Below, piece by piece: positions 50,789 to 63,779 of a stretch of 64,000 bases of DNA. Origin of the DNA: Treponema sp. (GTDB lineage Bacteria > Spirochaetota > Spirochaetia > Treponematales > Breznakiellaceae). The stretch is from contig WQXI01000008.1 in the NCBI GenBank assembly GCA_009784935.1, positions 1 to 64,000 on the forward strand, read 5' to 3'. The notes beneath the pieces are model-generated. The model made no database searches, had not been told where the DNA came from, and worked only from the letters and a program-made list of their open reading frames with translations. The position numbers and the translations under genes were made by a program. Position 1 is the first letter of the stretch. Each line of letters starts with the position of its first letter.

Positions 50789-50965
50789 TTAGCAATTACA
50801 TCTTCCCATAGTCCAGTTTGCAACATTACATCTACTCTGCCCGCATGCAAGTCCCCAATCACTGCAACCACCAGATCTGCTTCTTGGACAATTTGGAGTA
50901 CTAGAACAGCCAATAAACAATAATCCTAATACAATAGCGAGAACAAAAAACACCTTTACTTTCAT
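50789..50965 (-). CDS. Small Cys-rich lipoprotein
   Basis: 58 residues from the ATG at 50965 (GGAG six bases upstream): signal MKVKVFFVLAIVLGLLFIGC with a lipobox LFIGC, then a mature part with seven Cys (CSSTPNCPRSRSGGCSDWGL.., ending MGRCNC). It is the first gene of the small-lipoprotein run and is divergent from the XRE gene at 51098. Frame continues upstream to 51061 without a ribosome-binding site. A broken copy of its start occurs at 62133. Confidence 0.65.
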   Translation of the reverse strand: MKVKVFFVLAIVLGLLFIGCSSTPNCPRSRSGGCSDWGLACGQSRCNVANWTMGRCNC

Positions 50966-51039
50966 AAAAACTCCTTTCATCTTTTTTTTGCGTAATTTTA
51001 AGACTGACAATCTTATATTACTTACATCTGACATAATAC

Positions 51040-51482: not shown

Positions 51483-51866
51483 TTACCACAACCAAGGCAA
51501 ATCATATTTTTGAATATTTTCATCAATAGTTATTAATGTCATGTCTTCGGTCATTGCCGTTGCTATAAGCAGACGATCAAAGGGATCTTTATGATGCTCA
51601 GAAAGATTGGGAACTAATCGTAGGTACTCTCTGGCAACAGGCAATGTAAAAAACCCGTTATCATCTATCATGCGGAAAAATTCCGGCAATCCGCCGTCAA
51701 GCTGTAATTTACGGTTTCCAAGTTTTATTGCAATTTCCCATGCTGACGCAATACTGACGTATTTTTCTGTATTAATATCAAGTATTAATGTTTTTGCCTT
51801 ATCCGACAACAAAGGAGAATTCTCTGCAAGCCATAAAACAACATGTGTATCCAAAAGATATTTCAT
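51483..51866 (-). CDS. PIN-domain toxin (VapC-like)
   Basis: 127 residues with the PIN acidic sites: LLDTHVVLWL, an Asp/Glu in SIASAWEIAIKL, HHKDPFDRLLIATA and LITIDENI. PIN toxins cut RNA (often tRNA or rRNA). The ATG overlaps the antitoxin stop by one base (TAATG), the usual antitoxin-first order. Confidence 0.88.
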   Translation of the reverse strand: MKYLLDTHVVLWLAENSPLLSDKAKTLILDINTEKYVSIASAWEIAIKLGNRKLQLDGGLPEFFRMIDDNGFFTLPVAREYLRLVPNLSEHHKDPFDRLLIATAMTEDMTLITIDENIQKYDLPWLW

Positions 51867-52120
51867 TACATGTATTCCTTAAATTCTTCCATTGGTTCAT
51901 TAAAATCGACAGCCATTTTAATCTTTCCTTCCCATCCTCCAAGCTTTGCAGCTTTAATATCAGGCTTGGAAATATCAAATGGAATCGCCTGTCTATAGAC
52001 AATTTGATTTAAAAAAACATTAATGGCTGTAGACATATCAAGACCTAAATCTGTAAGAACCGATTGAGCTTTTGCTTTTAATTCACTATCAGTGCGTATA
52101 TTTATATTTGTTGCGGACAT
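51866..52120 (-). CDS. RelB/DinJ-type antitoxin
   Basis: 84 residues from the ATG at 52120 (GGAGG upstream): ribbon-helix-helix start (TNINIRTDSELKAKAQSVLT) and the PFDISKP tail. Normally paired with RelE/YafQ toxins; here it is joined to a PIN toxin, a mixed pairing. It would bind the promoter and the toxin. Confidence 0.85.
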   Translation of the reverse strand: MSATNINIRTDSELKAKAQSVLTDLGLDMSTAINVFLNQIVYRQAIPFDISKPDIKAAKLGGWEGKIKMAVDFNEPMEEFKEYM

Positions 52121-52225
52121 ATTAACCTCCATAAAACCATTCGTATTTTGTTACTTTTAATATATCATATTGTAAGCACGTTGTCAATACGTAAAAAATT
52201 GAATTCATACCTGGCGCCAGCCGCT

Positions 52226-52306: not shown

Positions 52307-52981
52307 TTACCCATTTATCATATCAAATATAATTCTTTCAATATCACTGCGAAACTCTTCCCAAGAAGGCTTTTTGGTCCAAGCGATTGTTTCAAACTCG
52401 CTTTGGGGCATCCCTGTTAAAATGTCAGAAATAAATGTTAATTCAATCCCTGCGTCTTTTTGCCTTGCATCTTTAATTGTTTGCGCCCAATTTATCGGCT
52501 CATGCAGAGCGATTTCCCTTATATCAACTACATCCTTTGCACTAAAACGAAACAATGCTGATATTTTATTTGTTAACATGTTACGGATAGAATCTGTTCT
52601 GTAATATAAATCGGTTTTAACAATATCGCCAAAACGAATTGCAAGATCATTTGCAAAATCTAACTTTAACAAAACATCAGATTTATTCCAACCTACCTTA
52701 AAAGACGTAAATGTATTATTACTGATAAAATCTACTTCAGTATCCCAGAAAAAACCAGCTTCTTTTAATTTAAAAAAAACTTCTTTTACCTGATCTAAAT
52801 AATCAACTGCGTCATTTAGAAAAAAATCCAGATCATCAGAATAACGGTGATTATAGTACGCTCTGCTTAGCGCTGTACCACCGGTTAGAAAAAACTGGAC
52901 GCCACATTTGCTTATAGTGTTCATCACCCCATCTTGAAGGGGGTAAAGGTTCTCTTCGTAATACTGCGAGGGCAAAATCAA
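52307..52981 (-). CDS. AbiEii-type nucleotidyltransferase toxin
   Basis: 224 residues with the nucleotidyltransferase motif FLTGGTALSRAYYNHRYSDDLDFF and a following KVGWNKSD.. KLDFAND block. AbiEii toxins transfer nucleotides to tRNA or other targets in type IV systems. TTG start at 52981 with GGAGG seven bases upstream. Its first 131 bases overlap the partner gene in another frame. Confidence 0.85.
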   Translation of the reverse strand: MILPSQYYEENLYPLQDGVMNTISKCGVQFFLTGGTALSRAYYNHRYSDDLDFFLNDAVDYLDQVKEVFFKLKEAGFFWDTEVDFISNNTFTSFKVGWNKSDVLLKLDFANDLAIRFGDIVKTDLYYRTDSIRNMLTNKISALFRFSAKDVVDIREIALHEPINWAQTIKDARQKDAGIELTFISDILTGMPQSEFETIAWTKKPSWEEFRSDIERIIFDMING

Positions 52982-53246
52982 AATGATACCTCCTACTTTT
53001 TGGCCAAATACGCCTTGCTATTTCTTCTGTATACAGTTCTTTTATTGCTTCAATCCCCCAAAGCGCTGTCACATAGTGCCATGGCAGCCGCTCAAGGGAG
53101 CGGACAAACAGCCTGTCGCGGGTAAAAGCCCCTGATGATTGCAAACGTCCTTCAATAACCAAGAGCATATCCTCATGAGTATCCAGATAGTCCCAATTAA
53201 GGTTTCTCATGAGTTTTAGTTTTTCGTCATAGGTTAAGTTCATCAT
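52851..53246 (-). CDS. Partner protein of the AbiEii toxin (putative antitoxin)
   Basis: 131 residues, without a signal or helix-turn-helix that I can place: starts MMNLTYDEKLKLMRNLNWDY, ends FSNRWYSAKQSVL. The C-terminal third (RREPLPPSRWGDEHYKQMWR) lies inside the toxin gene in another frame, and both frames look protein-like. Not a classical AbiEi winged-helix antitoxin by my reading. Confidence 0.65.
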   Translation of the reverse strand: MMNLTYDEKLKLMRNLNWDYLDTHEDMLLVIEGRLQSSGAFTRDRLFVRSLERLPWHYVTALWGIEAIKELYTEEIARRIWPKSRRYHFDFALAVLRREPLPPSRWGDEHYKQMWRPVFSNRWYSAKQSVL

Positions 53247-60615: not shown

Positions 60616-61905
60616 TTAACCTAAATATTTCTCAGCGCTCGCAAGTTTAACAGCAACACAGAATATATCCAAAGCTTCGCCAAGTTCTGTAAGAGGCGGA
60701 CATGTCGGAGCTATGCGGATATTGCTGTCTTTAGGATCGCTGCCGTTTGGGTATGTCGCGCCTGCGGGTGTTAACGCTACGCCTGCTTCTGCGCACAATG
60801 CAACAATTCTCTTTGCACAGCCTTCTAAAGAGTCAAAGCTGACAAAATAACCGCCGCTTGGCTCTGTCCATTTTGCTATGCCAAGCCCGTCAAGTTCGCG
60901 CTTTAGTGTATCAGAAACAAGCTTAAACTTTGGCTGTAATACCGCGGCGTGTTTTACCATGTGGGTTTTAACACCTTGCGCATCTTTAAAGAAACGCGCG
61001 TGACGGAGCTGGTTTAGTTTATCAGGTCCGATTGTCTGCGCTGTTAATCTTTTTTTGATGTATTCGCAGTTTGATTTAGAAGACGCCATACAAGTTATTG
61101 ACGCGCCTGCAAAACTTACCTTGGAGAACGAAGAAAAAACATACGCCATATTTGGATTTCCGGCTTCTTCGCAAAGACGAATAATATTCGGGATCTCTTC
61201 ATTGGAACTGCCAAGTCCGTGGAAAGCATACGCATTATCCCAGTAAATGCGGAAATCGTCAGCGGCTGGTTTTAATTTTGCAAATCGTTTTACAGTTTCT
61301 TCCGAATAAACAATACCGGTAGGATTAGAATATTTTGGAACGCACCAGATACCTTTTATCATGGGATCGGACGAAACCAGTTTTTCGACTGTGTCCATAT
61401 CGGGTCCGTCTTCGCCCATAGCTACTGGAATCATATCGATATGAAAATAATTGCAGATTGTAAAGTGGCGGTCATATCCGGGAGAAGGACACAAAAACTT
61501 TACCTGCCCTTGGCTCTGCCACGGTTTGCCGTCGCGTACGCCGTGTGACACGTTTACAGAAACATTATCAAACATAAGGGCAAGCGAAGAGTTGCCGCCA
61601 ACGATAACTTCATCAGGAGTTAAGTCCAGAAGGTCAGCGAATATTTTTTTTACCTCGGGTATACCGTCAAGTCCGCCGTAGTTGCGGCAGTCGGTTCCAT
61701 TTGCGGATTTATAATCGTCTGCTGTAAGGCAGGTAAGCATTTCATTACAAAGGGCTAATTGTTCGTCGGATGGAACACCGCGTGTCATGTTGAGTTTTTT
61801 GCCGGAGGCCTTGTGTTTGGAAAAAGCGCTTTCCAGTTCATTTTTTAGAGCGGATAACTCTGCCGCGCTCATTTGTGCATATGGTTTCATACGCTTACTG
61901 TACAC
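60616..61905 (-). CDS. PLP-dependent aminotransferase (class I-like, PF12897 type)
   Basis: About 424-429 residues. It has SNPTGIVYSEETVKRF, DDFRIYWDNAYAFHGL and the PLP lysine in SSFSKVSFAGASI. These match the aspartate/alanine aminotransferase group with an extended N-terminus. The reaction is transfer between amino acids and oxo acids. GTG start at 61905; the ATG at 61890 (MKPYAQMSAAEL) is likely the conserved beginning. Confidence 0.88.
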   Translation of the reverse strand: MYSKRMKPYAQMSAAELSALKNELESAFSKHKASGKKLNMTRGVPSDEQLALCNEMLTCLTADDYKSANGTDCRNYGGLDGIPEVKKIFADLLDLTPDEVIVGGNSSLALMFDNVSVNVSHGVRDGKPWQSQGQVKFLCPSPGYDRHFTICNYFHIDMIPVAMGEDGPDMDTVEKLVSSDPMIKGIWCVPKYSNPTGIVYSEETVKRFAKLKPAADDFRIYWDNAYAFHGLGSSNEEIPNIIRLCEEAGNPNMAYVFSSFSKVSFAGASITCMASSKSNCEYIKKRLTAQTIGPDKLNQLRHARFFKDAQGVKTHMVKHAAVLQPKFKLVSDTLKRELDGLGIAKWTEPSGGYFVSFDSLEGCAKRIVALCAEAGVALTPAGATYPNGSDPKDSNIRIAPTCPPLTELGEALDIFCVAVKLASAEKYLG

Positions 61906-61947
61906 TTTATTTTATCTTTCGTAAATAGATTATGCCAGAAGTATCTA

Positions 61948-62062
61948 AAAATGTATGCCTAATGCGTTCGTTTGGGGTCCTGTCGGCTGGTCAAAAGCGC
62001 CATACTTCGCATGGCACTTTTACCACCGACACCCCTCAAGTATTCTATTGGGCATACATTTT
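61948..62062. repeat. Foldback element 1 (12-bp perfect ends)
   Basis: AAAATGTATGCC (61948-61959) and GGCATACATTTT (62051-62062) are exact inverse copies. Inside, GGGG/CCCC, TGTCGG/CCGACA and AAAAGCGCCAT/ATGGCACTTTT (61993-62003 with 62011-62021, one mismatch) form one long stem. About 115 bases with no coding potential. Confidence 0.85.
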
Positions 62063-62094
62063 AAAATGATCTAACAACTCGAAGGCCGTAACAA

Positions 62095-62133
62095 TCATTG
62101 CCTATTTAGAACAAAAAACAGTTTTACTTTCAT
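62095..62133 (-). pseudogene. Truncated copy of a lipoprotein gene start
   Basis: MKVKLFFVLNRQ and stop, preceded by the same AAGGAGTTTTT site as the start of the lipoprotein at 50965 (MKVKVFFVLAI). The rest of the gene is gone; the foldback element lies just downstream. Confidence 0.7.
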
Positions 62134-62159
62134 AAAAACTCCTTTTTATAAACGTTCTT

Positions 62160-62486
62160 TTATCTTTGGCTTCTAGCTGGGCAAGGCTTATTGTTCGAAC
62201 CTGGGCAAGGTACCGGACCATTTCTTCCAGTAATAGTACCGCTGCCTCGACATCTGGTGCATGTTCCGGTATCTTGATTTCCCCTTTGCACCGGAATTTG
62301 CTGATAAGATGATGTTTCATCTAGATCTTCTAATGCTTGGGATTGAACATCAGATGATTCCATAACCTGAATGTTATAATCGCTATGCATGATTACATCT
62401 GAAGATTGCATAACTGCATGAACAGTAACTCCAGACCCGATTGCCAACAATAGAATGGCAATAACAAAAAGATTCCCTTTTCTCAT
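62160..62486 (-). CDS. Exported Cys-rich protein with zinc-ribbon-like motif
   Basis: 108 residues. Signal peptide (1-25, ending VHAV), acidic spacer, then C-terminal CTRCRGSGTI..CPGSNNKPCPA, recalling one half of the DnaJ zinc-finger (CxxCxGxG). AGGAGG before the ATG. In one run with the lipoprotein gene at 62518. Confidence 0.7.
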   Translation of the reverse strand: MRKGNLFVIAILLLAIGSGVTVHAVMQSSDVIMHSDYNIQVMESSDVQSQALEDLDETSSYQQIPVQRGNQDTGTCTRCRGSGTITGRNGPVPCPGSNNKPCPARSQR

Positions 62487-62517
62487 AAAATTTTCCTCCT
62501 AATTATTTGGTGAATTA

Positions 62518-62718
62518 TCACCGACCAGTACCAAAGCAGGCTCCGCAGGTTTTTCTTATGTTGCTTATTCCACCTTCATTATTTATAAAGGCATCACCTT
62601 CGGTATAACCTCTACCATAACAAGTAGAGCATCTTGTTGAGCCGCCTAAAGATAAACAACCAACCAAGGTGAACAGAAATGCTGATATTAAAACTAAAAT
62701 CAAAATCTTCTTCTTCAT
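62518..62718 (-). CDS. Small lipoprotein with DnaJ-type zinc-ribbon motifs
   Basis: 66 residues. Lipobox LVGC at residue 21, followed by two CxxCxGxG-type motifs (CSTCYGRGYTEGD and CGACFGTGR), which suffice for one zinc site. TGGAGG before the ATG. Its role is unknown; it would sit in the periplasm or on the outer membrane. Confidence 0.75.
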   Translation of the reverse strand: MKKKILILVLISAFLFTLVGCLSLGGSTRCSTCYGRGYTEGDAFINNEGGISNIRKTCGACFGTGR

Positions 62719-62783
62719 AACAAACCTCCATTACGATTAATGTCCGCCGACATTTTTAACATCTACATACGCAGCTGTTTTTA

Positions 62784-62972
62784 CTAGTTATTGCGATATA
62801 TATAACCGCTTTCTTCATTAAAAAAACCTTCATTCGTTTTTGAAATACAAATACTATATTTCTCAACAAGATATTCGGACATCAATATTACAATGTCCTT
62901 GTCTCCTTCTTCCAATGTATTAAAAAGAGCCAGTAATTTGCTGTTTTTCAAATTATCAGATGTTTCGTTCAT
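62784..62972 (-). CDS. Small cytoplasmic protein next to XRE
   Basis: 62 residues from the ATG at 62972 (MNETSDNLKNSKLLALFNTL..). It contains LEEGDKDIVILMSEYLVEKY, which resembles the tail of XRE regulators (compare KRDRKIVLNLIKSL at 51098), but has no HTH. First gene of the run facing away from the XRE gene. The frame is also open to 62984. Confidence 0.5.
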   Translation of the reverse strand: MNETSDNLKNSKLLALFNTLEEGDKDIVILMSEYLVEKYSICISKTNEGFFNEESGYIYRNN

Positions 62973-63003
62973 TTCTGCTAGCATATATATTATGCATTAT
63001 ACA

Positions 63004-63033
63004 CCTACTATATAGGCAATGTCAATAGATAAT
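63004..63033. promoter_or_regulatory. Putative operator between the small-gene run and the XRE gene
   Basis: Dyad CCTA-ctata-TAGG (63004-63016), one base, then AATGTCAATAGATAAT (63018-63033), one base different from 51054-51069. Both loci place it between a lipoprotein run and an XRE gene. Confidence 0.6.
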
Positions 63034-63110
63034 AAAAAAAATAAATAAAAAGTGTAAAAATTAGGCAATTTTTGCTTGCAAAAAAGGCTGTTATAATGTA
63101 TTTTTACTTT

Positions 63111-63476
63111 ATGGATTATTCAATTAACCAGCGAATTAAAAAATTAAGAGAAAAACTTGAACTTAACCAAAGAGAATTCTCTAAACTTCTTTCCTTATCA
63201 GGAGGTTATATAGCCGGAATAGAAGTCAATTTGCGAAATGTAAATGACAGGTTGGTAAAATTGATTATATCCCAATTTGGCGTAAACGAAGATTGGCTCA
63301 GATTTGGAAAAGGAGAAATATTTACAAAGAAAAAAACTGACGAAAAGGCAGTCAGGATTTTATCATTGTACAATGATTTACCGCCGCATTTTCAGGATGT
63401 TGTTTTAGGAACTATCGAATTATTACGAAAAGCAAACGACAAAGAAAAGAATAAACAAAAAAATCCCGCCAAATGA
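63111..63476 (+). CDS. XRE-family transcriptional regulator
   Basis: 121 residues from the ATG at 63111, where TATAAT (63092-63097) stands just before. N-terminal HTH (RIKKLREKLELNQREFSKLL) and a tail LPPHFQDVVLGTIELLRK. It is divergent from the small-gene run and the likely regulator of it. A longer frame from 63072 would include the promoter-like region and is less likely. Confidence 0.8.
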   Translation: MDYSINQRIKKLREKLELNQREFSKLLSLSGGYIAGIEVNLRNVNDRLVKLIISQFGVNEDWLRFGKGEIFTKKKTDEKAVRILSLYNDLPPHFQDVVLGTIELLRKANDKEKNKQKNPAK

Positions 63477-63619: not shown

Positions 63620-63762
63620 CAGGCAAGGTAAGGGCTGGTCAGAAAAACATTTCTGGCGTTCTCCGCTGTAGAGACCGAAAGGGCTTTACGAAGTAAAGAC
63701 CAGAGAGGCTCGGAAGCGGACTCTTTGCCAGAGTTTTTCTGGACAGCAGCTTACCTTGCCTG
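63620..63762. repeat. Foldback element 2 (13-bp perfect ends)
   Basis: CAGGCAAGGTAAG (63620-63632) and CTTACCTTGCCTG (63750-63762). Inner arms GTCAGAAAAACATTTCTGGC and GCCAGAGTTTTTCTGGAC pair over about 17 bases, and CTTTACGAAGTAAAG forms a small hairpin. It lies between convergent genes. Confidence 0.85.
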
Positions 63763-63779
63763 TAAATATTGAATAAAAT

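Follow-up and report, generated by a model that had tools for sequence, protein, structure and literature searches.

The window, i.e., the whole stretch of 64,000 nucleotides that was analysed, belongs to a draft genome of 2.37 Mb (G000, contig C8). Its best matches among named genome records are Treponema MAGs, which we take, from our reading of the group, to be of termite-gut origin. Locus B of this window is one copy of a cassette, in our reading a switch, that is repeated across gut Treponema genomes. It carries a gene for an XRE repressor and, divergent from it, an operon that starts with a 66-aa mini-protein and continues with two exported proteins, here called cargo (Table 1). Gene starts and signal peptides were assigned heuristically, and the genome sample includes many drafts. 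Two imperfect inverted repeats flank the locus. The first, at 61943-62067, has arms at 61943-61963 and 62047-62067 that are 86% complementary, and the second, CAGGCAAGGTAAG...CTTACCTTGCCTG, was spotted by eye at about 63620-63770. They may delimit a mobile cassette or act as transcription terminators.

Table 1. Genes and other features of locus B (positions in the window).
Feature	Position	Strand	Basis
XRE (HTH_3) repressor gene, 121 aa	63111..63476	+	Pfam HTH_3; homologues from the same start; tail homologous to mini-proteins
Mini-protein of 66 aa, free-standing XRE tail homologue and proposed antagonist	62784..62984	-	HMMs, hhalign, hairpin model, codon bias
Cargo 1, lipoprotein of 66 aa; two CxxCxGxG motifs	62518..62718	-	Lipobox LVGC and motifs read directly; weak DnaJ_CXXCXGXG match
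Cargo 2, exported protein of 108 aa; a single CxxCxGxG motif, lipobox absent	62160..62486	-	Read directly
Relic of the 5' end of the locus A lipoprotein gene	62108..62145	-	36 of 38 bases identical to 50940-50977
Promoter-like TTGACA-18-TATAAT of the mini-protein/cargo operon	62996..63025	-	12/12 consensus
Intergenic control region with conserved repeats, operator candidates	62985..63110	.	Alignment with four relatives

The initial annotation had placed an XRE gene on the forward strand of locus B, and this is confirmed by a match to Pfam HTH_3 with 35.8 bits (E 8.5e-9, cut-off 23). The longest ORF of this gene begins with a TTG at 63072; homologues in four other Treponema MAGs align from the ATG at 63111 and are 80-87% identical from there on. 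The C-terminal tail of the XRE, approximately residues 78-109, is predicted to form a helix-turn-helix hairpin, as seen in the secondary structure of an AF2 model that is otherwise too poor for use (pLDDT 46). All genes listed in the initial annotation are real, but the reverse-strand 66-aa ORF next to the XRE gene was overlooked there. This ORF is a conserved part of locus B and the key to the locus. When 80 neighbourhoods were read, a small divergent ORF of about 48-68 aa was seen at most XRE loci, with its start roughly 60-430 nt upstream. An HMM built from ten mini-proteins of the largest subgroup was run against all 10,587 six-frame ORFs of the XRE loci and found, at E<0.01, 31 ORFs at the mini-protein position and seven XRE tails, and no others. 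In the same set of 10,587 ORFs, an HMM of the XRE tail only retrieved, at E<0.1, the XREs and 25 ORFs at the mini-protein position, one of which reads through into the next gene, together with five further ORFs at this position just beyond the class boundary and a sole remaining ORF near another locus, L117. Profile-profile comparison of mini-proteins and XRE tails by hhalign gave P 5e-7 for the largest subgroup and P 1.1e-4 for the subgroup of the window. Judged by these three comparisons, the mini-protein is therefore a homologue of the C-terminal tail of the XRE itself.

Under a strict criterion, i.e., a score above that of every control ORF, a mini-protein is present at the divergent position in 57 of the 109 related XRE loci with enough upstream sequence, the two mini-bearing loci L108 and L117 having been excluded from the controls. 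This is a lower bound, since the mini-protein of the window and those of three close relatives were assigned by the subgroup profile instead, and many of the 52 loci that lack one by the strict criterion show one by eye. In the genome of the window, all four such XREs have a mini-protein: two belong to the strict set (L051 and L069), one was assigned by the subgroup profile (L120) and one has a read-through form (L108). The latter (G000:C5, about 141-1721 nt upstream of the XRE) continues in frame and stop-free into the next exported protein, so that it represents a natural fusion or has lost its stop. Among the relatives, the mini-protein is second in the operon at L043 and absent at L044, and a 93-aa mini-protein of G054 (L164:5560-5841) is a tandem of two hook motifs. 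The mini-proteins are under coding selection, with differences of 17, 6 and 47% at the codon positions of the family. In the model of the window's mini-protein, a short turn connects two helices, and pLDDT exceeds 90 in the conserved core. A Pfam scan of 32 mini-proteins gave a convincing match for none of them, a Foldseek search of PDB with the model gave no significant match, and the mini-protein profile found among PDB sequences only chance helical matches such as designed helices and coiled coils. Mirror-tree analysis was discarded as evidence of contact between tail and mini-protein: the correlations are strong, but the tail-specific partial correlation hinges on including the core clade.

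The arrangement of a tailed repressor and a detached tail resembles a known system of Bacillus subtilis. There, SinR is a 111-aa XRE repressor of exported matrix operons, composed of an HTH part (1-69) and a hook (74-111), and the 57-aa SinI is a free hook that dissociates the SinR oligomer via a shared four-helix bundle and so relieves repression (PMC3163267). Like SinR/SinI, and also SlrR/SlrA of the same organism, locus B has an XRE repressor of about 110-120 aa, with HTH_3 above the cut-off. The C-terminal two-helix hook of those repressors may have a counterpart in the XRE tail, where the hairpin appears in the poor model; for the mini-protein it is modelled with pLDDT >90. As in SinR/SinI, a small partner homologous to the C-terminal part of the repressor, namely a free hook of 50-66 aa, is encoded next to it, the targets are exported products, and short operator sites are repeated, the latter being candidates only in locus B (PMC3163267). 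However, the genes of locus B are divergent, whereas sinI and sinR stand in tandem; the mini-protein lies within the cargo operon, the spirochaete cassettes are many per genome, and they belong to Spirochaetota rather than Bacillota. Homology of mini-protein or tail to SinI was looked for by Pfam and HMMs and was undetectable: Pfam SinI matched none of the 32 mini-proteins, and SinI scored no better than shuffled sequence against the mini-protein and tail HMMs. For comparison, even a PDB search with SinI retrieves SinR only at E 0.67; hooks thus evolve quickly, and little can be concluded about ancestry from the missing similarity. A further parallel is sinR/sinR' of Clostridioides difficile, in which, as proposed here, the antagonist shares the oligomerisation part of its partner (PMC5864091), although both of these proteins have about 105-112 aa and are encoded in one operon.

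On balance, we lean towards the reading that locus B is a self-contained switch cassette that works like SinR/SinI without being a member of that system. The XRE would oligomerise through its C-terminal two-helix tail, bind repeated sites between the divergent promoters and repress the operon of mini-protein and exported cargo, probably also its own gene. The mini-protein, as product of the first gene of this operon, would be a free copy of the tail that forms mixed hooks with the XRE and breaks the DNA-binding oligomer, whereby repression would be lifted. By analogy with SinI, the mini-protein may thus antagonise the XRE. Since the mini-protein belongs to the very operon that the XRE faces, the XRE would repress the mini-protein and the mini-protein would disarm the XRE, and this mutual antagonism would give a two-state switch for exported proteins. 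The homology of tail and mini-protein predicts contact, not the sign of its effect, and would also suit a mini-protein that joins the XRE oligomer as co-repressor or stabiliser and strengthens repression, which would result in negative feedback instead of a bistable switch. We regard this as rather improbable, as the characterised free hook SinI disrupts the oligomer of its partner (PMC3163267) and a mini-protein without HTH would dilute the DNA-binding heads in the oligomer.

Regarding the cargo, the small divergent Cys lipoprotein reported by the initial annotation was found as described, with its lipobox and two exact motifs, CSTCYGRG and CGACFGTG; its score against the Pfam DnaJ zinc finger is 17.5 bits, under the cut-off of 32.7. 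The next protein had been called a second zinc-ribbon lipoprotein. It has one exact motif, CTRCRGSG, and a signal-peptide-like start and is thus exported, but it has no lipobox and is therefore not a lipoprotein. CxxCxGxG motifs are common to these proteins and the central zinc-finger domain of DnaJ, which however has four of them, whereas the cargo has two or one, no J domain, and is exported; with two and one motifs and 17.5 against 32.7 bits, the cargo falls outside the DnaJ zinc fingers. Among the 39 other genus genomes, cargo 1 has no confident relative and cargo 2 has none, and the CxxCxGxG proteins are therefore, as far as this comparison reaches, private cargo of locus B. The pair of XRE gene and CxxCxGxG lipoprotein, for which the initial annotation had suggested a search, is absent from the other genus genomes searched. 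Zinc-ribbon cargo as a recurrent partner of the XRE was accordingly rejected, a single borderline match of 34% in an unrelated context having been found in these 39 genomes. What does recur is the more general association of an XRE with divergent exported proteins, both at loci with an XRE of the locus B family (type B) and at those with an XRE like that of a second locus of the window, locus A (type A). The start of an exported ORF lies within 330 nt in 47 of 104 type B loci (38 of 298 shifted control windows) and in 37 of 58 type A loci (7 of 121). By a less strict measure, the gene behind the mini-protein is exported in 24 of 30 variable loci as compared to 46 of 148 control ORFs from the same sequences, export being called by a home-made signal-peptide/lipobox heuristic and not by a trained predictor. 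The cargo varies even among the four relatives with the closest XREs: G006 and G036 have exported proteins of 141 and 205 aa, respectively, and G026 and G020 have lipoproteins of 157 and 464 aa.

Weaker relatives of the XRE (E<1e-12) are present in 34 of the 40 genus genomes, often several in each, and a profile matched 57 of 197 genomes from the order, with nearly all matches in the same family and up to 15 per genome. The closed genomes G054 (4,059,867 bp) and G081 (3,855,671 bp) contain seven and four copies of the cassette XRE, respectively. Outside the order, the family is sparse, yet present: G463, from another order, has an XRE 81% identical to that of the window, with mini-protein and lipoprotein, and seven copies of several subtypes, and G232, from another class, has one of 74% identity. 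Simple vertical descent of the XRE is doubtful, because the identity ranks of LepA and XRE conflict (97% and 82% to the window in G012, 95% and 91% in G006) and because of the 81% identical XRE in another order. Horizontal spread of the cassettes is likely, judged from these identities. In a check for empty sites by LepA synteny, the LepA neighbours differed in all relatives examined. Tailed XREs with 41.5% identity also occur in phages and plasmids of C. difficile. On plasmid pCd18_2 (L194:2194-2833), a tailed XRE stands with a divergent, tail-like ORF of 47 aa before an antirepressor gene; with one of the two mini-protein HMMs, this ORF outscores 500 shuffles, and the arrangement is a lead towards a mobile-element origin. 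The XRE of a Megamonas plasmid was tried as a further case and dropped, its small neighbour not being tail-like.

Phage switches of the CI/Cro type share with locus B the divergent promoters, a small regulatory gene that comes first on one side, and XRE repressors. Locus B could accordingly be a switch of this kind from a mobile element, with the mini-protein in the position of Cro, perhaps with other partners, and the exported genes as passengers. The related tailed XREs in Clostridioides phages and plasmids, one of them with a mini-like divergent ORF, would suit such an origin, as would the spread of cassettes across spirochaete orders. We nevertheless think it distinctly unlikely, since Cro has its own HTH and the mini-protein has none, the loci examined contain no phage genes, and the cargo consists of exported proteins, which are enriched behind these XREs.

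The control region bears on a different question, namely the relation of locus B to locus A. The initial annotation had pointed to a 16-mer present in both, AATGTCAAYAGATAAT (63018-63033 in locus B). It does occur exactly only at these two loci within the window, with 0.17 matches expected there at up to two mismatches, and its 13-base core is found genome-wide only at the same two places. On the reverse strand, however, the TTGACA within the 16-mer is, at either locus, the -35 box of the cargo promoter, which at locus B (63025-62996) agrees with the consensus in 12 of 12 bases and at locus A (51061-51033) in 11 of 12. Its conservation therefore needs no common regulator, and the idea of a common operator in the 16-mer was rejected. 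Better candidates for operators are the sequences conserved among the relatives. In an alignment with four of them, the intergenic region has the conserved repeats CTATATAGGCA and TTAGGCAA...TGCTTGCAAAA; the subgroup of the window conserves TACTATATAnGCA inside the cargo promoter and, ahead of the XRE, ATTAGGCA...TGCTTGCAAAA, and the largest subgroup has repeated GTGAG sites in its control region. The broken lipoprotein start is continued at 62098-62110 by ATTGCCTATTTAG, a sequence similar to an operator-like intergenic repeat and a possible recombination point; TAGGCAA occurs three times in 61900-63200 and seven times in the window.

Locus B had also been described as following the plan of locus A, with a regulator of the same type. 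Neither statement holds: the two XREs are dissimilar (BLASTP E 0.80) and belong to different families, and the mini-protein is found only in type B, being absent from locus A and from type A loci in general. Relatives of the locus A XRE occur in 33 of the 40 genus genomes. It resembles RstR over its whole length, but with 47.2 bits against NF041951 it stays below the NCBIfam cut-off of 80 for RstR membership. Near locus A, ORFs whose translations read like a PIN-domain toxin/antitoxin and a nucleotidyltransferase pair were seen at 51483-52132 and 52307-53246. What the two loci do have in common is the broken lipoprotein start with the same ribosome-binding site, exactly as the initial annotation had stated. 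This relic comprises the ribosome-binding site, the ATG and the first codons, and its frame closes after 12 codons. A 24-mer of ribosome-binding site and start, searched with up to three mismatches allowed, has no place in the 2.37-Mb genome other than loci A and B, and the reversed control 24-mer has no match in the genome. Duplication followed by divergence, which had been deduced from this, finds no backing, as just 38 nt are shared and the same cargo families stand behind both XRE types: six of the ten multi-member families contain genes from both, although the families were formed by single linkage and shared repeats may join some of them. In G027, cargo of the type A locus L201 and the type B locus L114 is 77% identical over 289 aa, and that of L203 (type A) and L116 (type B) 70% over 290 aa. 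Since families and pairs span both types, cargo therefore appears to move between the two regulator types, and such an exchange, rather than duplication, is the preferred explanation for the 38-nt fragment, which would be its scar. That loci A and B are duplicates with one regulator type, a shared 16-mer operator and diverged cargo is thus very improbable, as the lipoprotein start at 95% identity and the restriction of the 16-mer and its core to both loci are set against unrelated XREs, a locus A without mini-protein, a 16-mer that overlaps the -35 box and the lack of any other cargo gene similarity seen between them.

The open-access literature searched yielded no account of XRE/mini-protein cassettes like these in spirochaetes. 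A wider picture, which we offer tentatively and with less confidence than the switch at locus B, is that gut spirochaetes possess dispersible, bistable cassettes of the SinR/SinI kind that diversified independently of Bacillus. Each would have its own operator and its own pair of tail and mini-protein, so that operons for exported proteins would flip separately and give a combinatorial heterogeneity of the cell surface, and cargo would be exchanged across the two regulator families as well as across spirochaete orders. For the search of such switches, the cassettes provide a sequence rule, i.e., a tailed XRE with a divergent small ORF that matches the tail, which is perhaps also applicable to plasmids and phages of Clostridioides. 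If the mini-protein does act as antagonist, two-state switches would have been built repeatedly, possibly by convergence, from detached repressor tails, and uncultured gut treponemes would control their exports by several separate switches.
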